This document shows, piece by piece, positions 2-11,903 of a stretch of 64,000 nucleotides of DNA; position 1 is the first letter of the stretch, and each line of letters opens with the position of its first letter. A program made the translations under genes and the position numbers. The notes beneath the pieces are model-generated. The model saw nothing but the letters and a program-made list of their open reading frames with translations. It searched no databases and was not told the origin of the DNA. Origin of the DNA: a virus; the IMG/VR virus record IMGVR_UViG_3300032288_003086, positions 1 through 64,000 of that record, one strand, 5' to 3'.

Positions 2-1744
2 AGGAGTCATCAGTGGAACGTTAGTTCTCCTTCTCTTGGATTTCGTCAGTTCACTTCTGTCAATGATTATTTCTTGGCTGCGGGGGATGACATCATCACT
101 AGGATCCTTAATGAGTCGGAAGATCTCCAAGACTTCGGGACATACCAGCTCCTGAGGGTTACCACCTGCTACTGGAAATCCCAAAGAATGGTAGGTCATC
201 TAACCAAGATTGACCCTGAGACAGGGATGAAGTTCCATGAAATTGTGACAGAGGATTACAAAGTGACTGTTCCTCCAGTATATGATACTCGTATTAATAA
301 GAATAAGGATGATTCTACCTTGACTCAGGGAGAACATATCAAATGGATATGGATCAACCAGGTGTGGGGTGGATTGAAGATTGGTCCTAACAGACCTAGC
401 TTCTATGGTAATGCTGACTATATGGGTATCCAACCTATATATCTGAATATAAAACCAATCAAGTTCCAGTTCAAAGGTGATTTGACTATCTATGGTTGCA
501 AGCTTCCTGTGGAAGGTTCGGTCTTCAGTGATCGCAATTCCAGGAGTGTATCCATGGTAGATAAGATGAAGCCTTTCCAAGTGGGCTATAATTTGGTGAA
601 CAACCAGATCTCTGACATCCTTATAGATGAGTTGGGCACTGTGATTTTGCTAGATCACAATGCTCTTCCTAAGCATTCAGCAGGCGAAGACTGGGGTAGA
701 AACAACTATGCCAAGGCATATGTGGCTATGAAGAACTTCCAGATCCTGCCTTTGGATACAAGTATTTCCAATACAGAGAATGCAGTAGGGTTTAATCACT
801 ACCAGATGTTGAATCTGGAGCAGACCCAGCGTCTGATGTCCAGGATTCAACTGGCCAACTACTTCAAGCAGCAGGCTTTTGAGGTGATTGGTATTACACC
901 ACAGCGTCTTGGTCAGCAGACTGGTCAGGAAACAGCCACAGGTATTGAGCAGTCCATCAATGCATCATTCTCCCAAACAGAGATGTACTTTGTGCAACAC
1001 TCTGAGTATCTGATGCCTAGGGTACACCAGATGCGTACAGACTTGGCACAGTATTATCATTCAAATCGTCCAAGCGTGCGTTTGTCTTATATGACATCCA
1101 TGGATGAGAAGGTCAATTTTGAGATGAATGGTACTCAGCTTTTGTCTAGGGAGCTGAATGTATTTGTAACTACCAAGGTGAATCACAAGCAGGTGATGGA
1201 ACAGATCAAGCAGCTTGCCATCCAGAATAATACAGCGGGTGCCAGTATCTATGATTTGGCTGAGATTGTGAAGGCTGACTCCATGAGTGAGGTAACGCAT
1301 GTGCTTAAGAAGATTGAGCAGAAGACTGAGGCACAACGTCAACAGGAGATGCAACAGCAACAGCAGATGCAGGATAAGCAACTCCAATCTGCACAACAAA
1401 TGCAGGAAGCTCAACAACGATTTGAGGCTGAGCAAAAGCAGTTGGATAGGCAGACCCAGATTGATGTGGCTGAGATCAAAGGTGCAGGGTATCAAGTTCA
1501 AGATATTAATGCCAATCAACAGAGTGACTACATGGATTCACTTCAGTATTTAGAAGGCAAGAGACAAGCCAATGAGACCCTGAATCTCAAGCGCGAGCAG
1601 GAGATCAATAAAAATGCCCGCGAATCTCAGAACATGGACATCAAAAGAGAGGAGATGAACACTCGAAAAGAAATAGCTGAGAAGCAGTTGCAGGTAGCCA
1701 AGGAGAACAAAAACAAGTATGACAATAAATCAAAAAATAAATAG
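2..1744 (+). CDS. Portal protein, C-terminal 580 residues (5' end outside window)
   Basis: The reading frame is open from the first bases of the window, so the gene starts upstream; the TTG at 74 is only an internal codon. Portals form the dodecameric ring at the capsid vertex through which DNA is packaged and ejected. The stretch near bases 910-985 (GQQTGQETATGIEQSINASF) is the pattern I recognise from portals of crAss-like phages, where an ETATG-type segment is followed by a long helix. From about base 1290 the protein turns into a glutamine-rich coiled coil (repeated QQ, EAQQRFEAEQKQ) and a Lys/Glu-rich helical tail, fitting a portal barrel and C-terminal extension. The gene ends with TAG. 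It sits directly upstream of the scaffold candidate and capsid gene, the usual portal position. Assignment by pattern; fairly sure. Confidence 0.8.
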   Translation, partial: RSHQWNVSSPSLGFRQFTSVNDYFLAAGDDIITRILNESEDLQDFGTYQLLRVTTCYWKSQRMVGHLTKIDPETGMKFHEIVTEDYKVTVPPVYDTRINKNKDDSTLTQGEHIKWIWINQVWGGLKIGPNRPSFYGNADYMGIQPIYLNIKPIKFQFKGDLTIYGCKLPVEGSVFSDRNSRSVSMVDKMKPFQVGYNLVNNQISDILIDELGTVILLDHNALPKHSAGEDWGRNNYAKAYVAMKNFQILPLDTSISNTENAVGFNHYQMLNLEQTQRLMSRIQLANYFKQQAFEVIGITPQRLGQQTGQETATGIEQSINASFSQTEMYFVQHSEYLMPRVHQMRTDLAQYYHSNRPSVRLSYMTSMDEKVNFEMNGTQLLSRELNVFVTTKVNHKQVMEQIKQLAIQNNTAGASIYDLAEIVKADSMSEVTHVLKKIEQKTEAQRQQEMQQQQQMQDKQLQSAQQMQEAQQRFEAEQKQLDRQTQIDVAEIKGAGYQVQDINANQQSDYMDSLQYLEGKRQANETLNLKREQEINKNARESQNMDIKREEMNTRKEIAEKQLQVAKENKNKYDNKSKNK

Positions 1745-1846: not shown

Positions 1847-3064
1847 ATGACTTCCAATGAAAACAATGCCCCAGACATTAATCTGGATGAGTTCTTACCA
1901 ATGCCAGGAGCTGAGGACATCGTCACAGCTTCAGAAACAACAAAACCCACCAATGTATTCTCAAAGCCTGAGCCCTTTGATACCAACTTCTTAGATAAGA
2001 AGGACGAGAAAAAGGATGAAGACAAAGAGGATAAGAAGGAGGAAAAGGTTGACCTTGAGGCAGCTGCACAAGTAATCGACGAGATTACAGGTGATGAGCC
2101 TAATGAAAGCAAGGGACCTGGAAGACCAAAGATTGACAAATCAGGTCTTGTAGACACCTTTTCCAAGCTCATCGAAGAAGGACTTCTAGTTCCTTTTGAT
2201 GATGACAAGCCCATGGAGGAATATTCAGTTAAAGACTGGAAGGAACTCTTGCAGGCAAACTTCGAGGATAGGGAGACTAAAGCTAGACAGGATCAAGCTG
2301 GGGAGATTGTCCAGCAACTTCCAGATGAGCTGAAGCTTGCCTACAAATACATCTCAGATGGTGGTACAGATTTGAAAGGATTATTCAGGGTCCTTTCACA
2401 TGTAGAAGAAGTTCGTTCTTTGAATCCTGAAGATGAAAGAGACCAAGAGACCATAGTAAGAAATTACTTCAGGTCAAAAGGTGATCTGTCCGAAGATGAG
2501 ATCAGTGAAGAAATTGATACATATAAGGACTTGGGAACCCTTGGTAAAAAGGCTACGCAGTACAAGCCTAAGTTGGATAAGTTTGAAGCTCAGAAAGTTG
2601 AGCATCGTCTTAGACAGCAAGAGCAGTACCAGCAGCAGAAGTATGAAGCCGCTCAGCAGTACATGGATAATGTGTATGATACACTTAAAGGTGGCCAGCT
2701 GAATGGTGTAAGACTTGACAAGAAGACACAGGCCTTCCTTTTCACAGAGCTTACGCAGCCCAAGTATCAGACTGCGGATGGTAGTGGAAGGACGACAAAC
2801 CTGCTAGGTCATTTGCTGGAGAGATACCAGTTTACTGAACCTAGATATGACTTGGTAGCTGAAGCGCTTTGGTTACTGGCTGATCCTGATGGTTACAAGA
2901 ATCAGATTAGGTCCTTAGCTAAGAATGAGGCTACTCAAGAAACAGTGAGAAAATTAAAGACCGAGGAGTCCCGTAAGATTTCGACGTCGATGGTTGATGA
3001 TCAAGAAGATCAGCAGCCAACAAAAAGAAAACTTCCAAGACAACAAAACATATTTAAACGTTAA
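1847..3064 (+). CDS. Acidic, helical capsid-assembly (scaffold-like) protein
   Basis: A 405-residue, highly charged protein lying between portal and major capsid protein, where tailed phages usually encode a scaffold. Residues about 1-95 are acidic and low complexity (runs of D, E and K, such as KKDEKKDEDKEDKKEE). A GRPK segment follows near residue 89, then a conserved-looking stretch (LIEEGLLVPFDDDKPMEEY), and a Gln-rich coiled coil near residues 250-275. The C-terminus is basic (TKRKLPRQQNIFKR), which suits binding to the inner capsid wall. No protease motif is visible. Start chosen at the first ATG after the promoter-like element and AAAACCAAC motif. Scaffold function is inferred from position, composition and predicted helicity; a minor inner capsid protein is the alternative. 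Confidence 0.55.
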   Translation: MTSNENNAPDINLDEFLPMPGAEDIVTASETTKPTNVFSKPEPFDTNFLDKKDEKKDEDKEDKKEEKVDLEAAAQVIDEITGDEPNESKGPGRPKIDKSGLVDTFSKLIEEGLLVPFDDDKPMEEYSVKDWKELLQANFEDRETKARQDQAGEIVQQLPDELKLAYKYISDGGTDLKGLFRVLSHVEEVRSLNPEDERDQETIVRNYFRSKGDLSEDEISEEIDTYKDLGTLGKKATQYKPKLDKFEAQKVEHRLRQQEQYQQQKYEAAQQYMDNVYDTLKGGQLNGVRLDKKTQAFLFTELTQPKYQTADGSGRTTNLLGHLLERYQFTEPRYDLVAEALWLLADPDGYKNQIRSLAKNEATQETVRKLKTEESRKISTSMVDDQEDQQPTKRKLPRQQNIFKR

Positions 3065-3091: not shown

Positions 3092-4720
3092 ATGGCAACA
3101 CCAGTTTTAAACAATGGTCTATTTCTACGTGACACGCAGTACAAAGCTTCGTCCCACGTAGACTCATACCACTTAGTGAACATGCTTAGAGGAACTGAAC
3201 CTATGGATATGGGTCCTGTAGATCTTTGGGCTATGGCTCAGAAGGTAGAAATGCCTCTGTACCAGATGGCTTCATTTGGTGGTAAGAACACAATCCTTGT
3301 AGACAACCCTCGCGGTGAATACAAGTGGCAAACTCCTGTCGTACAAGATCTTCCCTACATCGTAGAGAACTTGGAAGATGGCAACACAACTACAGGTTCG
3401 GATGGAACAACCTTCCGCATCAAGTTGAACAAGCGCATCTTTGGTCATGGTGATATCATCACTTACGACAAATACAACGGTGCTGAATTGTACATCACTG
3501 CTGATGACATCATCCCTGCTGGCGATGGTTTTGTCTACACTGTGCAGATGGTGAACAATGATAACACCGCTATCTTCAAGCAGGACTATATGGCTCCTGG
3601 AACTAAGTACTTCCGCAAAGGTTCTGCCCGCGGTGAGTATGGTGAGCGTTTCTCTGACATCATGGTTCAAACTGGTTTCCGCGAGTACTACAACTTCGTA
3701 GGTGGCGCTGAAGCTCACGTACACTACAGCATCTCTTCTCGCGCAGAGTTGATGATGAAAGGTGGTTTGAATGCTGATGGTACACTTCCTGTTACTGAAA
3801 TCTGGCGCATGTTCGACAAGCAAGCTGATCCTTCGATCACTTCTCTTGAGACCATGGTATCCAAGATGGGTAAGGAATATGTGAAGCGTGCTTATGACAA
3901 CGGTACATTGACTCGTTCATTTGTAACTGCTTTGGAAGCTGCACACCTTACTAAGATCGCTACTGACATCGAGACTTACTTGATGTGGGGACAAGGTGGT
4001 CGCATTAAGCAAGATGGTCCAGATGATATCCGCTTGTCAGTGGGTCTTTGGAAGCAGCTTGACAACTCTTACAAGCGCATCTACAACAAAGGTCAGTTCT
4101 CTCTTGAGCTGTTCCGCGCTGAGATCTTCAACTTCTACAATGGTAAGGTTGAGTTCAAAGGTCCAGATCCAAAGCGTGAACTTATTGTTCAGACTGGTAT
4201 GGGTGGTATGAAGCTTGTAAATGAAGCAATTAAGAAGGAAGCAATCGCTGCTGGTCTTGTGATCAACGCTGGTCCTTCTGGTAATGGTATTGGTGCAATC
4301 ACTGGACAAGGCATGGATCTGAACTTCGGATTCGCTTTCACTAGCTACACCATCCCATTCCTTGCTAATGTGAAGTTTGTGTTGAACCCTGCGTTTGACA
4401 ATGTACACACCAATGACATTGAAAACCCAATGATCGATGGTTACCCATTGTCTTCATACAACTTCATTATCTTCGACATCACTGACAACACCAATGACAA
4501 CATCTTCCTTTTGAAGTTGTCTTGGGACAACCAGTTGAAGTGGTTCTATCAGAATGGTACTATGGATTATATGGGTCGTACCCAAGGCTTCCAGTCAAAT
4601 GGACAGTTCAATGGATACCGCGTCTATATGACTCAGACCATGCCTGCAATCTGGGTTAAGGATCCTACCAAGGTCCTCAAGATTGTTCAGAGGAACCCAA
4701 TCACTGGTGGTTCATTCTAA
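3092..4720 (+). CDS. Major capsid protein
   Basis: A 542-residue protein expected to form the icosahedral shell (HK97 fold in all tailed phages). The N-terminal region (LRDTQYKASSHVDSYHLVNM, then PMDMGPVDLWAMAQKVEMPL) and the mid part with MWGQGG and GNGIGAITGQGMDLNFGFAF match the style of crAss-like major capsid proteins I know. The gene prefers C-ending codons such as AAC, ATC and TAC more than its neighbours, as expected for a very highly expressed protein. It follows the scaffold candidate by 27 bases and is followed at once by a strong intrinsic terminator, which suits high-level expression. The leader lacks a Shine-Dalgarno sequence (TTACAAAAATGG). A prohead cleavage site cannot be placed by eye. 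Confidence 0.85.
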   Translation: MATPVLNNGLFLRDTQYKASSHVDSYHLVNMLRGTEPMDMGPVDLWAMAQKVEMPLYQMASFGGKNTILVDNPRGEYKWQTPVVQDLPYIVENLEDGNTTTGSDGTTFRIKLNKRIFGHGDIITYDKYNGAELYITADDIIPAGDGFVYTVQMVNNDNTAIFKQDYMAPGTKYFRKGSARGEYGERFSDIMVQTGFREYYNFVGGAEAHVHYSISSRAELMMKGGLNADGTLPVTEIWRMFDKQADPSITSLETMVSKMGKEYVKRAYDNGTLTRSFVTALEAAHLTKIATDIETYLMWGQGGRIKQDGPDDIRLSVGLWKQLDNSYKRIYNKGQFSLELFRAEIFNFYNGKVEFKGPDPKRELIVQTGMGGMKLVNEAIKKEAIAAGLVINAGPSGNGIGAITGQGMDLNFGFAFTSYTIPFLANVKFVLNPAFDNVHTNDIENPMIDGYPLSSYNFIIFDITDNTNDNIFLLKLSWDNQLKWFYQNGTMDYMGRTQGFQSNGQFNGYRVYMTQTMPAIWVKDPTKVLKIVQRNPITGGSF

Positions 4721-4799: not shown

Positions 4800-5384
4800 A
4801 TGGCAATATATCCCCCAATTCCTAAGCAATTTATGTGGCAATGCTGGAACGCTCCTGTAAAGGGTTCATGTGCCACAGGTGGTGGAGGTGGAACATCTTT
4901 ACTTTACAAAGAAGTTCCTATCTCCTCAGCACAGATCCTTACAATAGGCACTATTCGAGTTGAACTACTTCCTCAATTACCACAAGGACAGTATTATGAT
5001 AATGTGAAGATGAACTTGGAGTACAAGTTTGTTACGACACCTTATGTTGATGGCAATACTGCTTTGATCATAAATAGTATAAATGCCTCTTTTGTTGCAG
5101 ATTTTTCAGCTAGTCCCTATTTTGCGGTTACAAGAACCACACCTTTTGCAGCTACTACTGATACCGCTTGTATAATTGATGGTACACAGACACAAGGTAC
5201 AACTACTGTAAATAGTTTGAATTACAATGCTCGTCCTTTTAGCGCTAACATAGCAGATCCACAGTTTTCTGATTTACATATTTATGCAACTGGATCAAAA
5301 GGAGCTCCTAATCCATCAGGAGGAGATGGTACAATGCTTGTGAAGATCTGGTATGAGATTCGTAATATAGGTAGTGAATTATAA
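4800..5384 (+). CDS. Probable capsid-bound beta-sandwich decoration protein
   Basis: A 194-residue protein of unknown family. Its first 30 residues match those of the downstream collagen-like fibre: WQCWNAP is at residues 13-19 in both, followed by a Gly-Ser-Cys-x-Thr-Gly-Gly segment. The rest (residues about 33-194) alternates hydrophobic and polar residues with many Thr, Ser and Asn, and ends in KIWYEIRNIG, as in an all-beta domain; the 164-residue protein at 7624 ends similarly. It follows the capsid gene but has its own promoter-like element, suggesting separate and probably strong expression. A head decoration or short head-fibre role is inferred from location and the shared anchor. No catalytic motif is visible. 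Confidence 0.5.
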   Translation: MAIYPPIPKQFMWQCWNAPVKGSCATGGGGGTSLLYKEVPISSAQILTIGTIRVELLPQLPQGQYYDNVKMNLEYKFVTTPYVDGNTALIINSINASFVADFSASPYFAVTRTTPFAATTDTACIIDGTQTQGTTTVNSLNYNARPFSANIADPQFSDLHIYATGSKGAPNPSGGDGTMLVKIWYEIRNIGSEL

Positions 5385-5396
5385 AAAATATAAAAC

Positions 5397-7445
5397 ATGT
5401 CAATATATTCAAGACCAAGAAAGACACGCGGCTGGCAGTGTTGGAATGCTCCATTAGAAGGTGATTCATGTTCAACAGGTGGTTCTAGTATTCCAGGTCC
5501 TGCTGGTCCTGCTGGTCCACAAGGTGTGCAAGGAGCGCAAGGTATTCAAGGTTTTCAAGGTGTTGCTGGTACTACAGGTGCTACTGGTGCACCTGGTTCT
5601 CAAGGTATCCAAGGAGCAGCTGGTCCCATAGGTCCTGCTGGTTTGAACTGGCAAGGAACATGGTCAGCTCTTGCATCATATGTTCCTGATGATGCTGTAG
5701 CCTATAATGGTGCTTCTTACTTTGCAATAAACAATGTAGGACCTTTAGTCACTCCTCCAAATGTTGACACCGCTAACTGGGCGCTTTTGGCTGCACAGGG
5801 TGCAACAGGTCTACAAGGACCAACTGGAGCAACTGGAGCAACAGGAGCTACTGGTGCAACAGGTCTTCAAGGTCCACAAGGTTTACAAGGTCCTCAAGGT
5901 CTGCAAGGTATACCTGGTCCTACAGGTCCTGCGGGTAATGTAACAAGTCTTACAGTTGAAAGTGGTTTGAGGAACATTGGTGATCTTGCCAATCCAATCC
6001 TCAGACTTGGTCAGAATCCACTTCTTGCGCAGACAGAGATTCCTTCAGGAGGATTCAACCTGTCTTTGTCAGGTACTGGAAAACTAGGTGTTGGTCTTGA
6101 CTTGTCTACAGGTTCATCAACTGCTGCCAAACTACAGGTCATGTCAAACGGTGGCGCTGATTTGATAGCGGGTGTCATAAGTGGTAATACCCTTACTTTA
6201 CAGACAACCTGGGTTATAAACTCAATCACTTATACAAGCGCTGCTTTCACAGGTACCATAAACATAGGGGATGGAGTATTTGTACCTACGGATTCTGGTG
6301 TAAAACCTGGAACTGTGATAACAGCCAATCCTTCTCCAGGGGTTTATACCCTTAGCACTACTGGTAATAGTTTTACAGCATACGGAAATACTACTCCACC
6401 ACTTCCTCCAGGATTTGCAGGATACGGTATTTCCACATCTCCGCTTGTATTCAAAAGCCAACCTTTGACAGGATCCACATGGGATGGAGGAACAACAACC
6501 ACATCTTCATTTGAAGTATATGCAAATGGTGCAGTCAGATCAGGAAACCTGTTTATTTCAAAGCAAGGAAGCGGTGGAAGTAAATTCTCTTTTGGTTTTC
6601 CAACCAGCACTGATCCTTTTGGTACATCAGGTAATGGAAACTCTTCATTCTCTGTTCTTGGACAGATGGCTACAAATGCTGGTATAAGCACTGGAACACC
6701 AGGAGTAAGTTCAAGCATAAGGTTTGTAGGTCAGAATGAATGTGCCATAACTGGTCAAACAGATCTTGCACTGTCTTACTTTTCTCTGACAGGAACAAGA
6801 GGTCGTCACTCTTTCATAGGTGGTATTGCAATCAGTAAAAACTACGAGAATGGTGGTAATGCTATAAACGGAAGATTTCCATCCATTTATTATGGTGCTG
6901 ATTCATCAACAGCTGGAAACTATGGAGCACAACAAGGTTATTCCCTTTGCGTTTATCAGCCATTCAGTCCTGGAACAGCAGGTTCAATATCAGGTACAGT
7001 AACAGGTTACATAGTTGGAACCACCCTTTTTGTAACAGCTGTGAACGGTAGCGGATGTAATGCACTACCCGTAGGATTGTTGAATGCTGGCAATACGTTG
7101 TCATCAAGTAGCGCTGCTGCAAGTATCGTAATAGGTACTACAATTACAGGTACTCTCGTACCTTATGTACCTGGTGTTATATCAGGTGTTCCTCCTAGTT
7201 GTCCTGGGGCAGCAACTGTTGGTCAATATTCAGTATCCGCCTCCCAGACTTATTCCTCAGGTCCTGTTGGGGTCACAATATACGTATCCGCATATCCAAA
7301 CTGGAACAACTCACGCGCTATGTATGTGGATGGAACAATCAAGTTTGTAAATCTTCCACAAGGCGCTGGTTCCGCTCCAGTGGGTCTTACCGCGGGTGAT
7401 ATCTGGGTGGACACATCAGCAGGCAACGTATTGAAAATGGTGTAA
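5397..7445 (+). CDS. Collagen-like head/tail fibre with carbohydrate-binding-like domain
   Basis: A 682-residue fibre. Residues 1-30 are an anchor shared with the preceding gene (WQCWNAP at 13-19). Gly-X-Y collagen-like repeats run at residues 34-82 and 135-180. Between them, residues 84-133 (WQGTWSALASYVPDDAV through NWALLA) match the CBM5/12 (ChtBD3) pattern of spaced Trp and Tyr residues with a central V-Y-G-Y core, which often alternates with collagen segments in phage fibres. The remaining 500 residues are Ser/Thr/Gly-rich and beta-like, ending in a compact tip (LTAGDIWVDTSAGNVLKMV) typical of trimeric fibre ends. It probably decorates the virion and weakly binds glycans on the host or its surroundings. 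Position after the capsid gene favours a head fibre. Confidence 0.65.
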   Translation: MSIYSRPRKTRGWQCWNAPLEGDSCSTGGSSIPGPAGPAGPQGVQGAQGIQGFQGVAGTTGATGAPGSQGIQGAAGPIGPAGLNWQGTWSALASYVPDDAVAYNGASYFAINNVGPLVTPPNVDTANWALLAAQGATGLQGPTGATGATGATGATGLQGPQGLQGPQGLQGIPGPTGPAGNVTSLTVESGLRNIGDLANPILRLGQNPLLAQTEIPSGGFNLSLSGTGKLGVGLDLSTGSSTAAKLQVMSNGGADLIAGVISGNTLTLQTTWVINSITYTSAAFTGTINIGDGVFVPTDSGVKPGTVITANPSPGVYTLSTTGNSFTAYGNTTPPLPPGFAGYGISTSPLVFKSQPLTGSTWDGGTTTTSSFEVYANGAVRSGNLFISKQGSGGSKFSFGFPTSTDPFGTSGNGNSSFSVLGQMATNAGISTGTPGVSSSIRFVGQNECAITGQTDLALSYFSLTGTRGRHSFIGGIAISKNYENGGNAINGRFPSIYYGADSSTAGNYGAQQGYSLCVYQPFSPGTAGSISGTVTGYIVGTTLFVTAVNGSGCNALPVGLLNAGNTLSSSSAAASIVIGTTITGTLVPYVPGVISGVPPSCPGAATVGQYSVSASQTYSSGPVGVTIYVSAYPNWNNSRAMYVDGTIKFVNLPQGAGSAPVGLTAGDIWVDTSAGNVLKMV

Positions 7446-8180: not shown

Positions 8181-9197
8181 ATGAGCGTAACAATCGTTGA
8201 AACCAACCCCGTAAGCAAGAAGTACAACAGTACCATTGCTATCAGACCCTATGTTGACAGTAGTAAAAACAACATGGGTTTGGAGAAGTATGATCAAGCT
8301 TTGTTTGATGGAATCTTCCATGAAGAACAGCTAGCCTGTCTTGAGATGAATGGCATCAAACGCTATGTCACAGGACTGAATGAATTTGCTCCTGAGATTA
8401 AGCGTCTTCCCACTGAAGAGCGTGAAGCAGCCATCAAAGAGATTCGCAGACTAGTAACTCAGTTAGAAGCAGAGCTTGCAACCAACTTCCTAGATCCTGA
8501 AGACAAGGAGTTTTGGAATAAGGTAAAACTTCTGCGTCCTGACAATGATGACTTCTGGAGTAAGATTGTCATTCGCGTGGGTAATGAACCTATATGGTTA
8601 AATCCTACAGATCCTCACGATTTGATCAAGCTTAAAGCAATTGAAGCTGGTGGATTTAGTCTGGTGGCTAAGACTTTGGATGTAGCGCGTAAGAGTAATC
8701 CTTCTTACAAGTTCTATCTGGATAAGTTTGAAGAGACTGCCTCTATCAAGACTGAGGTTAAAAAGCTACGTAATAAAGCGCTGGCTGAACTGGAGAAGCT
8801 TGCAAACAAGAACGTCAATAAGTTGATGTATGTATGCAAAGTGGTGGATCCTAACTCTCCTCAGTACAAGAAGACTACTCCTACAGATGTCATGTACGAT
8901 AACATGGACAAGTACATCAATGGAGAAACTGTGGATACAGACAAGCGTAAGACTGCTCAGCGTTTCATGGATATTGCAAACCTGGATATGGAAACGCTTA
9001 AGATCCGCGCCATCATCAAAGATGCCACGTATTATAAGTTATTAATTCTCAGAGGTGATGGGTTTATTTATCATGGTGAATCCAATACTTTGGTAGGTAA
9101 GAATCCTTCTGAGATTGCAGAATATCTCAAAAACCCTCTCCATGAAGACATCCTGATGCATTTGACTAAGGGTGTGGAGAAATACTGGAATAACTGA
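8181..9197 (+). CDS. Conserved structural-region protein, unknown (338 aa)
   Basis: A charged, mostly helical 338-residue protein. A beta-like N-terminus (MSVTIVETNPVSKKYNSTIAIRP) precedes helical segments, including a coiled-coil-like stretch near residues 185-215 (SIKTEVKKLRNKALAELEKL). The C-terminus (RAIIKDATYYKLLILRGDGF, then ILMHLTKGVEKYWNN) forms a separate-looking module. A WLNPTDPHDLIKLKAIEAGG segment sits mid-protein. It follows the head-fibre block and overlaps the next gene by one base (TGATG), so the two are probably translated together. It resembles conserved crAss-like structural-block proteins in style, but I cannot name its role; capsid-vertex, connector-associated or packaged protein are all possible. 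Confidence 0.6.
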   Translation: MSVTIVETNPVSKKYNSTIAIRPYVDSSKNNMGLEKYDQALFDGIFHEEQLACLEMNGIKRYVTGLNEFAPEIKRLPTEEREAAIKEIRRLVTQLEAELATNFLDPEDKEFWNKVKLLRPDNDDFWSKIVIRVGNEPIWLNPTDPHDLIKLKAIEAGGFSLVAKTLDVARKSNPSYKFYLDKFEETASIKTEVKKLRNKALAELEKLANKNVNKLMYVCKVVDPNSPQYKKTTPTDVMYDNMDKYINGETVDTDKRKTAQRFMDIANLDMETLKIRAIIKDATYYKLLILRGDGFIYHGESNTLVGKNPSEIAEYLKNPLHEDILMHLTKGVEKYWNN

Positions 9198-9907
9198 TGA
9201 CAAACGCCGAGTTGCAAATTAAAGTCAAAGAGAGGCTGAACAAACTGGCCTCTCTTGACTATGATAACTTTGAATGCTGGCAGATTGTTGAGGCATTCAA
9301 CAAGGCGCAACTTGAGTGGTTTCGCCGTCAGATTAATGGTATCAACCAGCTTCAAGCGGGGGATGGATCTACCAAGGTCAACTACGATGATACCCAGAAG
9401 CTAATCAAAACAGTTCCTCTTACAGGTGCAAACTATCCAAATACATATCCTCAGAACTTTGAGACAGATCTTATCCCAGAGGATTATCTGTATTACAGTT
9501 CCATGTATGTAATGGCTAAGAGTGACTGTTGTCCAGAAAGGAATATCATTGTGTATATGGTAGATAAGGCTGATCTATATGTAATCCTTAGGGATGATAA
9601 TAAGAAGCCTAGCTTTGACTGGGGTGAAACAGTTGCAGTTGTTGGTGACAATAAGTTCATCATCTATACAGGTGGTGAGTTTGACATCACATCCATAAAT
9701 CTTACTTACTATAGAAAGCCAGTTCCAGTATCATTTGGCGGATGTGTGGATATCAGTACAGGACTTCCTACTGCAGATGTTGCATGTGAGTTCAAGGATG
9801 ATGTTGCAGAAATCCTAGTTGATAATGCTGTAACCATACTTGCTGCTGATATTGAATCATTCAATCAATACACTAGGGCTGCTAACTCAGTACAATCTAA
9901 CACATAA
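9197..9907 (+). CDS. Candidate head-tail connector (ring-type) protein
   Basis: A 236-residue protein. The N-terminal helices (NAELQIKVKERLNKLASLDYDNFECWQIVEAFNKAQLEWF) resemble the helical part of phage head-tail connectors. A beta domain follows, with YYSSMYVMAKSDCCPE, VILRDDNKKPSFDWGE and INLTYYRKPVPVSFGGC. The end (FKDDVAEILVDNAVTILAADIESFNQY) is a helix like those in connector or adaptor proteins that bind the portal. In crAss-like virions several ring proteins stack between portal and tail, and this gene's fold pattern and position fit one of them. Start and stop overlap both neighbours by one base. Identification is by architecture only. Confidence 0.5.
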   Translation: MTNAELQIKVKERLNKLASLDYDNFECWQIVEAFNKAQLEWFRRQINGINQLQAGDGSTKVNYDDTQKLIKTVPLTGANYPNTYPQNFETDLIPEDYLYYSSMYVMAKSDCCPERNIIVYMVDKADLYVILRDDNKKPSFDWGETVAVVGDNKFIIYTGGEFDITSINLTYYRKPVPVSFGGCVDISTGLPTADVACEFKDDVAEILVDNAVTILAADIESFNQYTRAANSVQSNT

Positions 9908-10473
9908 TGGCTGAATCTACACCATACAAAAGAGTTCTTAAGAACAGTGAGAAGGAGGCTGCCCCAGCTTCTAAGAAGAATCCTTTGATTACTGACAAAT
10001 GTGTTGAGTATCTCAACTACAGGATTGAGCAGGAGGAGTATAGTTCCCGCATCTATCTTGCAATGTCCATGTGGTTGGAGGACAAAGGATATGTGAATGC
10101 TGCTAAGCTTTGGAAGAAGTATTCTACAGAGGAGCATGCGCACGCGGACTGGGCGCGCGTATATCTTCTTAGTCTTGGTATTCAACCAAAAACACCTGCA
10201 TTGAAAGAACCTCCACAAGACTTCTCAGGACTTCCTCAAATCATTAAGGATTCACATGCTCATGAAGTGGATATTACCAACCAGACCAAGGACTTATCTT
10301 CTCATGCTTTGGAGATGTCTGACCACATGCTTTATCAGCTTGGTTTACAGTATGTTAAAGAGCAAGTGGAAGAACTCAGCAAGCTTCAGAACTGGTTAGA
10401 CCAGTTGGAATCCTTTGGTGAGGATAAGATTGCAATGCGTCTTTTGGACCACGAAATGAAAGATTACCTCTAA
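9907..10473 (+). CDS. Ferritin-like iron-storage protein with complete ferroxidase centre
   Basis: A 188-residue protein that aligns by eye along its length with bacterial non-haem ferritin (FtnA type). The four-helix bundle begins near residue 27. Predicted ferroxidase ligands are all present: E43 (in EEYSS, matching FtnA E17), E76 and H79 (in EEHAH, matching E50 and H53), E120 (in HEVDIT, matching E94) and Q153 with E155/E156 (in KEQVEE, matching Q127 and E129/E130). Ferritins oxidise Fe(II) and store it as mineral in a 24-mer cage. An extra N-terminal tail of about 26 residues, rich in Lys and Ser, precedes the bundle and could dock the protein to something. It sits between two structural genes and joins the upstream one through TAATG. 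Dps is less likely because the metal ligands lie within one subunit. Whether it is in the virion or acts in the infected cell cannot be told. Confidence 0.85.
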   Translation: MAESTPYKRVLKNSEKEAAPASKKNPLITDKCVEYLNYRIEQEEYSSRIYLAMSMWLEDKGYVNAAKLWKKYSTEEHAHADWARVYLLSLGIQPKTPALKEPPQDFSGLPQIIKDSHAHEVDITNQTKDLSSHALEMSDHMLYQLGLQYVKEQVEELSKLQNWLDQLESFGEDKIAMRLLDHEMKDYL

Positions 10474-10547: not shown

Positions 10548-11903
10548 ATGGCTTATTTTAATCATGCGTTCCAGAAGCTTCTTCTAGGAACGAACCCTAC
10601 AGCCGTAGGTGCCAACTATACAAATGGTTGGTACACTGGCGCTCAAGGTGCAATTCAGACAGGTGGTAATGTAATTCCTGCATTGAATCTTGCTCCTGGT
10701 ACTCTTGCTGCTGTCACTGCTACTCCTGGTGATGGTTCAATTGGTGCAAACGTAGTTCTTAAAGGTGATGCTGCAGCTCCTACAATTGCTGCTGCTCCTC
10801 AGATCTATCTTGCACAAGGTTCAATCAACACTAAAGACAGGCTCGGTCCTTTCGCTGGTGGTTACCAAGAGTCTGTAAAGACCAAAGGTATCAACCCACG
10901 CTATGTGACCAAGTTCTGGAAGCAGTGTCCTTTGACTCCTGAAAATGAAGTAGTGGATGTATGTATCTGCGAAGGTGCTGAACCTCAGTGCGGTACCTCT
11001 TACTACTTGCGTATTGATCTTAAAGGATCTCCATTATTGCGCTTCCTCAGTCACAATGCGTACAAGACATTTGCATCTGAGAACTATTGCTGCCCTGCAG
11101 ATCCTTTGGCATCAACTGCATTGAGTACTGCAGATGCATTTGGTATTCTTGTTGACTGGACATGGCAAATCTTGTTTGATCCATGGATGAGTCAGTTTAT
11201 TGCTCCTGAGTTGACTAGCGATGCTGGTACTTGGACTTGGCAGGATATCCAAATATGGTGGGCTGCAAATGGCGGAAACAGTGTAAACCTTGCTGACAAA
11301 CCGTCTAAAGCTGAGTTGTATGCTGCATATATTGCTGCAGAAGGTACTCCTGCAACCCTTACTGGTGCTTGTATCATTCTTTACGGTGCTTATGTAAGTA
11401 CTGAATTTGGAACATGTTCCTTCCACCCACAAGATCATTATGAGTTGGAGCCTGTGAAGATCTATGCATCTATCACTGACCAACTTGGCGATCCTTGCGT
11501 AGACCAAATCTTCTGCATTGAAAAGACTACTCTTGCTCAACAAGGTTCTGGATATGGACATCGTTACATCCGCGACCTGATCCTATTCCGTCGCTACATG
11601 CAAGAGCATTATGTATATGATCCACGTCTGCGTGAAGTTATGGACCAGGATGTCATTACCAACTCTGGATTGGTGCCTACTGAGCAATACACTGAGTACA
11701 ACATCCTTCACAGTGTTCCTCGCTTCAACAATCCAACAGGTGTGTTTGACAATGATCAGTATATGATTACTGTTGTATTCCCATGTGAAAACACTGACTT
11801 CGAAGATTTCATGCAAGAGTATATTGATCTTGGTGGAAATGGTGTTACACTTGAGTCTATCAACGGTTTGACTTGTGCTTGTCCTACTCCGCCGATTCTG
11901 TAA
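10548..11903 (+). CDS. Abundant structural protein, unknown family (451 aa)
   Basis: A 451-residue protein flanked by its own promoter-like element and a strong terminator. That makes it the only single-gene unit here besides the capsid operon, and suggests a major virion component. The N-terminus (MAYFNHAFQKLLLGTNPT) is followed by an Ala/Gly/Thr-rich stretch to about residue 90, then a mixed domain with several aromatic-rich segments (WTWQILFDPWMSQF, TWTWQDIQIWWAANGG). It is cysteine-rich for a phage structural protein (CICEGAEPQC, YCCPAD, TCACP at the end), and codon use resembles the capsid gene. The Arg/Tyr-rich segment HRYIRDLILFRRYMQEHYVY is distinctive. An auxiliary capsid or main tail component is plausible. 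I do not recognise the family. Confidence 0.55.
   Translation: MAYFNHAFQKLLLGTNPTAVGANYTNGWYTGAQGAIQTGGNVIPALNLAPGTLAAVTATPGDGSIGANVVLKGDAAAPTIAAAPQIYLAQGSINTKDRLGPFAGGYQESVKTKGINPRYVTKFWKQCPLTPENEVVDVCICEGAEPQCGTSYYLRIDLKGSPLLRFLSHNAYKTFASENYCCPADPLASTALSTADAFGILVDWTWQILFDPWMSQFIAPELTSDAGTWTWQDIQIWWAANGGNSVNLADKPSKAELYAAYIAAEGTPATLTGACIILYGAYVSTEFGTCSFHPQDHYELEPVKIYASITDQLGDPCVDQIFCIEKTTLAQQGSGYGHRYIRDLILFRRYMQEHYVYDPRLREVMDQDVITNSGLVPTEQYTEYNILHSVPRFNNPTGVFDNDQYMITVVFPCENTDFEDFMQEYIDLGGNGVTLESINGLTCACPTPPIL

Follow-up and report, generated by a model that had tools for sequence, protein, structure and literature searches.

The window analysed here is a stretch of 64,000 nucleotides belonging to a virus record of 124,086 bases, and a ferritin gene lies among its head and tail genes (Table 1). 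The carrier phage is crAss-like (Crassvirales), as judged from the sequences of its Crassvirus-type major capsid protein (MCP), its portal protein and its multiple tail-ring proteins; a second ring-like gene is linked to crAss001 gp43. The portal gene, which begins before the window, is about 2.7 kb long when intact in relatives. The closest MCPs from isolates are those of Leptolyngbya phage Lbo-JY46 (29% identity, cyanobacterial host) and then of the Cellulophaga phages phi4:1 and phi17:2. Cellular contamination was ruled out as the origin of the ferritin gene, which is flanked by crAss MCP, portal and ring genes both in the window contig and in its relatives.

Table 1. Features of the window in and around the ferritin gene (positions counted from the first nucleotide of the window).
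Feature	Position	Strand	Basis and remarks
Portal protein, 3' part (gene begins before the window)	74..1744	+	phrog_6547, profile positions 317-808 of 827, E = 2.4e-62
Scaffold-like protein	1847..3064	+	Relatives have it at the same place, between portal and MCP; putative function, from position
Crassvirus-type major capsid protein	3092..4720	+	PF23898, E = 9.2e-31; phrog_11589, E = 5.9e-31; crAss001 gp32
338-residue homologue of crAss001 gp33	8181..9197	+	BLASTP 2.8e-8; phmmer 2.1e-10
Tail-barrel ring protein (R3-R5 type)	9197..9907	+	phrog_29507, virion structural protein, 3.8e-9
TAATG stop-start overlap of ring gene and ferritin gene	9905..9909	+	Sequence; putative translational coupling
FtnA-type ferritin	9907..10473	+	188-residue ORF from the ATG at 9907 to the stop codon at 10471-10473
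N-terminal tag plus linker (MAESTPYKRVLK...), codons 1-24	9907..9978	+	Predicted to be disordered; tag part approximately codons 1-12
Ferritin core, five helices; ligands E43/E76/H79/E120/Q153 and E152/E155/E156	9979..10470	+	Alignment, AlphaFold2
451-residue conserved gene, 3' boundary of the slot	10548..11903	+	Downstream of the slot in relatives

The gene directly upstream of the ferritin gene has a counterpart in a second crAss-like lineage (clade 2; the lineage of the window is termed clade 1) that matches crAss001 gp35 and gp34 at 6e-18 and 7e-15, respectively; gp35 is ring protein R3 and gp34 is R4/R5 (PMC10172136). The coupling to a connector-type gene noted in the first-pass annotation was confirmed as a stop-start overlap, and that gene is a homologue of the tail-barrel ring proteins of crAss001. 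Among 45 distinct relatives the junction between the ring stop and the ferritin start ranges from a 4 nt overlap to a 21 nt gap. Late expression of the ferritin is plausible; a scan for promoters and terminators gave the same counts as in shuffled sequences. The 451-residue protein encoded downstream (g451) matched no Pfam or PHROG family, so the abundant structural role given to it in the first-pass annotation is putative. No iron-dependent enzyme (ribonucleotide reductase) was found among 20 large ORFs scanned elsewhere in the genome. Separately, the adjacent proteins encoded at 4800-5384 and 5397-7445 have a common N-terminal motif (MAIYPPIPKQFMWQCWNAPVKG and MSIYSRPRKTRGWQCWNAPLEG, respectively), which in the second protein runs on into collagen-like repeats; the two are probably head fibres with one capsid-docking N-terminus.

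The ORF was matched by the Pfam family Ferritin (PF00210; E = 4e-21, 75.9 bits against a cut-off of 24.5) and by PHROG 16594 (unknown function; E = 2.5e-15), and also by NCBIfam PRK10304, although under the equivalog cut-off (58 versus 178). At E <= 1e-3 it matched 116 distinct PDB sequences, the best being V. cholerae ferritin (1.7e-23). The AlphaFold2 model, built from a 19-row alignment (pLDDT 85), consists of helices A (30-59), B (63-89), C (109-136), D (140-170) and E (174-187) preceded by a disordered segment (residues 1-22, pLDDT < 50). This predicted four-helix bundle with a short E helix was superposed by Foldseek on solved bacterial ferritins with TM scores (target) of 0.93-0.96 and an rmsd of 0.9-1.2 Å; for 3QZ3 and 1EUM the values are 0.94-0.96 and 0.9-1.1 Å. 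Residues 30-184 are colinear with residues 4-158 of E. coli FtnA (1eum). In the MAFFT residue alignment with E. coli FtnA, the window residues E43, Y50, E75, E76 and H79 correspond to E17, Y24, E49, E50 and H53, and E120, E152, Q153, E155 and E156 to E94, E126, Q127, E129 and E130. The diiron ligands E17, E50, H53, E94 and Q127 (E. coli numbering) are thus all present. Because the alignment is colinear, the residues singled out in the first-pass annotation are real ferroxidase ligands, and its reading of the ORF as a ferritin with an intact ferroxidase centre is upheld by the profile match and the model.

Nine of these positions (E43, Y50, E76, H79, E120, E152, Q153, E155 and E156) are invariant in all 74 aligned distinct phage ferritins. 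The sole metal-site position found to vary among those checked is that of Glu49 in the C site (window E75), which is Glu in 51, Gly in 18 and Asp in five; it is the clade-2 ferritins that have no Glu49 equivalent. Phage and bacterial ferritins (E. coli 1EUM/4XGS and V. cholerae 3QZ3) thus agree in the five-helix fold, the colinear alignment, the A- and B-site ligands, Tyr24 and two of the three C-site acids, with the third (E49) kept in most, whereas the window ferritin differs in its tagged N-terminus of 24 residues, in the replacement of Trp122 and in the location of its gene in a phage tail/head operon. The core is under purifying selection (pN/pS 0.15-0.16 in close clade-1 pairs). By alignment and predicted structure, the ORF is assigned as an FtnA-type ferritin, and it is almost certainly a functional ferroxidase. 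A chance or mistranslated ORF was ruled out by the Pfam match, the PDB matches and the AlphaFold2 model; identity as Bfr or Dps was ruled out by the colinear, full-length FtnA alignment with its E helix.

In a quick tree the phage ferritins form one clade (50 thinned rows, SH-aLRT 91) in which the two phage lineages are intermixed, so the ferritin gene has moved between phages. The sister of this clade is a chromosomal ferritin group from Flavobacteriaceae (L125-L134; L numbers denote the sequences collected) that is 48-55% identical to the phage protein; ordinary Bacteroidota ferritins are approximately 25-32% identical. This nearest cellular group could point to a host ferritin recently acquired and of no function for the phage, but the single phage clade spans two phage lineages and such a functionless recent acquisition is contradicted by the conservation of the core (pN/pS 0.16); it can be dismissed with near certainty. 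A phage-type ferritin (56%) was also seen on JACIXZ010000027.1 (L124, 5.5 kb), binned as a Tissierellales MAG, which looks like a mis-binned phage fragment. A search of the INPHARED isolates for relatives of the window ferritin gave weak ferritin matches only.

In order to avoid biased counts of the slot, relatives were fetched through the MCP and not through the ferritin. In 49 assessable MCP-anchored clade-1 loci the position behind the ring gene is held by a Dps-like gene in 38, by a ferritin gene in nine and by neither in two, i.e. a ferritin-superfamily gene occupies 47 of 49. In clade 2 the position lies behind the portal gene and holds a ferritin in 24 loci (21 scored by script plus L231-L233, whose ferritin begins at the stop of the portal gene), a Dps-like gene in 17, both in tandem in five and neither in 14. 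The first-pass annotation had suggested a search for the gene at the same place in related phages and had regarded iron proteins as rare in structural operons; many related phages were found to keep the gene at this position among their head and tail genes, and the rarity does not hold in this crAss-like lineage. In a FastTree phylogeny of 115 ring proteins (local supports only; set partly fetched with ferritin and Dps queries) the occupant changed between ferritin and Dps-like at least 18 times, a minimum for the sampled ring proteins and not a rate. The slot is filled repeatedly by one of two cage families. Neither a ferritin nor a Dps-like protein was found in the regions searched of crAss001 and Lbo-JY46.

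The Dps-like occupants (126-165 residues) belong to DUF5856 (PF19174) by Pfam. Their profile matches solved PDB Dps/HP-NAP sequences at 1.5e-6 with the Dps ligand spacing, and the model is a four-helix bundle for which the best folds are all Dps (probability 1.0, E only 5e-3). Four of the five Dps ligands (H51, H63, D67, D78 and E82) are invariant (97 of 109 scored by pattern), the exception being Asp67, at which position Asn is mostly found. By profile and model the alternative occupant is therefore classed as a Dps-like protein. In no case did the ferritin profile claim a Dps-like core, or the Dps-like profile a ferritin core. DUF5856, which comprises T4 rI.-1 and more than 1000 phage records (T4 rI.-1/MobD.6, LIMEstone1 ORF78 and Sajous1 gp217 among them), is of the ferritin superfamily, as is the window protein, and in sister phages it fills this slot, again behind the shared tag; it differs from the window ferritin as a shorter subfamily with Dps-type ligands and no E helix.

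Several observations on DUF5856 were made in passing. T4 rI.-1/MobD.6 (L384:2444-2830) and an Ackermannviridae homologue (L377:5010-5363) belong to the family, and the tie between DUF5856 and Dps comes from searches by profile and by fold with its crAss-like members; the RefSeq label of many members, `starvation-inducible transcriptional regulator', may mislead. Podoviruses from Manatee Spring have their DUF5856 gene immediately after a P22-like portal gene (1-base overlap) or a head-tail connector gene (L378:4001-4363 and L382:3920-4342), so the link to the portal reaches beyond crAss-like phages.

A new tail of about 26 residues had been ascribed to the window protein. A tail of 24-26 residues is real and is N-terminal, but it does not belong to this protein alone, being found throughout the lineage and common to the ferritin and Dps-like occupants. 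MEAKPRMLKR begins both the ferritin L116 and the Dps-like protein L361; other ferritin/Dps-like pairs within a lineage are MQKIARPTIFS and MQKISRNSIFS, and MEVPKVKL and MEVPKIKL. Both tandem genes of L292 begin with MALDINK, with two synonymous changes, and those of L106 begin with MQKIVRPTVF and MQKIPRPSVL. The match between ferritin and Dps-like tags exceeds that of shuffled tags by z = 17.6 in clade 1 and 6.8 in clade 2 and is absent across lineages; the tags group by lineage and not by fold. A search for the tag on other genes of the clade-1 loci did not find it (one occurrence versus three in the shuffled control).

The local tag was kept in each recent swap examined. In the L116/L361 swap the DNA homology spans the ring gene, ends at nt 30 (codon 10) and resumes behind the stop of the gene; L042/L228 shows the same pattern with the break at nt 24. 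As the homology breaks where the tag ends, a swap exchanges the cage and leaves the tag in place at the locus. In close clade-1 pairs pN/pS is 0.35-0.39 for the tag, 0.57 for the linker and 0.15-0.16 for the core, i.e. the tag is moderately constrained, and the clade-2 ferritin tag gives 0.80; positional pN/pS is unreliable for distant pairs because the tag motif shifts position. A basic motif is present in 28 of 32 ferritin tags and 47 of 54 Dps-like tags in clade 1 (5-6 expected), but in none of 15 and one of 12, respectively, in clade 2, where MEVPKVKL and MALDINK occur instead. A generic basic DNA-binding tail would fit clade 1 and was ruled out by clade 2. The absence of the motif there makes a protein partner likelier than DNA, and on balance the tag probably docks at the protein level.

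The tag may instead be a retained translation-initiation segment. The cage would then be a soluble late cytoplasmic iron store and antioxidant that docks to nothing, encoded by an auxiliary metabolic gene, and its place behind the ring or portal gene would merely provide late, high and coupled translation. This alternative carries some weight but is the less probable side of the balance. It agrees with the use of two different upstream genes (ring and portal), with recent swaps that keep the upstream DNA and the tag DNA together and with the Dps and Mn-catalase encoded by gut phages, for which a role in oxidative stress has been proposed (PMC8008677). It does not sit well with the persistence of the same tag motif despite a shifted position and changed codons (L106 and L292), nor with the expectation that a replacing gene would bring its own 5' end, and the relatives of the alternative occupant in LIMEstone1 and Sajous1 are virion proteins.

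In Dickeya phage LIMEstone1 the DUF5856 protein ORF78 was detected in virions by mass spectrometry (three unique peptides, 28% coverage; PMC3296691). Its homologue gp217 in Sajous1, 91% identical, was found in CsCl-purified virions and was recognized as ferritin-like by the authors (PMC10892097). The Ackermannviridae members have no crAss-like tag, so entry into the virion is independent of the tag there. They and T4 rI.-1, which likewise is without this tag, lie outside the main structural block, rI.-1 being outside the structural genes altogether. By analogy with these relatives from other phage families, the chance that the slot product is virion-associated appears to be about even. It was proposed for Sajous1, whose virion carries the Dps-like gp217, that virion-borne iron exploits iron-uptake receptors, a `Ferrojan horse' (PMC10892097). 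Vi01-like phages including Sajous1, however, infect TonB- and FeoB-deficient Salmonella with similar efficiency (PMC10892097), the slot adjoins ring or portal genes and not receptor-binding genes, and the iron would be hidden inside the cage; such a role is very improbable here. Three functions had been offered in the first-pass annotation, namely protection of DNA from iron-driven damage, hoarding of iron for progeny and use of iron receptors; the first is the best supported and the last is weakened by the Salmonella infections (PMC10892097).

The ferritin fold might also serve as a mere building block of a structural or assembly factor, with catalysis incidental. The gene does adjoin portal or ring genes in crAss-like phages and portal or connector genes in the spring podoviruses, and Asp67 is missing from most Dps-like members. 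In 74 of 74 ferritins, nevertheless, the six ferroxidase ligands are all invariant, and 14 of 60 clade-2 loci hold neither cage. Known ferritins form 24-mers and known Dps proteins form 12-mers, and mutual replacement of two such assemblies would be ill suited to a fixed structural joint. A purely structural role is accordingly improbable.

The reading preferred here, for which the balance of probability is even, is that of a late-made, tag-docked ferroxidase cage that shields phage DNA and assembly from iron and peroxide damage. Late in infection the head/tail operon would yield the tagged cage along with the portal, capsid and ring proteins, and the lineage-specific N-terminal tag would dock the ferritin cage to a partner made by the phage, whether the portal or ring complex, the procapsid or the completed virion. 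The ferroxidase of the docked cage would remove Fe2+ and peroxide or oxygen, free Fe2+ being oxidized and stored, and Fenton damage to replicated or packaged phage DNA and to assembling particles would be reduced. In sister phages a Dps-like cage in the same slot and with the same tag would do the same job. More tentatively, an interchangeable N-terminal tag specific to the lineage is proposed to load ferritin or Dps cages onto or into virions, at the HK97-fold capsid, the portal or the tail barrel.

Phage-borne ferritins and Dps proteins are already known, as is a Dps-like virion protein. The Dps and Mn-catalase of Gratiaviridae and the ferritin-like proteins of Lactobacillus phages are likewise phage-encoded members of the ferritin superfamily with a proposed role in oxidative stress; the Lactobacillus phage gene is located near replication genes, and a tag-sharing slot has not been reported (PMC8008677; PMC6669764). 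In the open-licence PMC papers searched, no description was found of a slot next to a ring or portal gene in which two cage families replace each other while their tag is conserved. Phage ferritin-like genes have so far been regarded as auxiliary metabolic genes of scattered occurrence; in these phages a single slot is tied to a tail-barrel or portal gene and refilled by either cage while the first 8-12 residues stay. The slot makes the question of why phages carry iron proteins testable, through the binding partner of the tag and the presence or absence of the cage in virus particles. Should it be present there, these phages would pack an iron and peroxide defence with the genome and DUF5856 would be linked to such a role.

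The cargo ferritin-like proteins of encapsulins offer a possible analogy, in that they too carry a short disordered terminal tag within a gene system that has an HK97-fold shell, but their tags are mostly C-terminal (L-x-(V/I)-x-x-L) and the cargo is not cage-forming (PMC11202242). The phage tag is N-terminal and, in clade 1, basic (KRxLKR / KIxRP), and its loading function is putative. An encapsulin C-terminal targeting peptide is absent from the window ferritin, the C-terminus of which is the ordered E helix ending in LLDHEMKDYL. Were virion loading to hold, the system would be a natural analogue of encapsulin cargo loading and a viral counterpart of encapsulin-ferritin loading, with the catalytic cage as an exchangeable module and the tag as a property of the virion. 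As a separate observation, the `prohead protease' proteins A0A6J7XDU5, A0A6J7WPK9 and A0A6J7WIS1 of uncultured Caudovirales match the ferritin model with weak scores, which suggests ferritin/Dps-like domains fused to capsid-maturation proteins in these phages.
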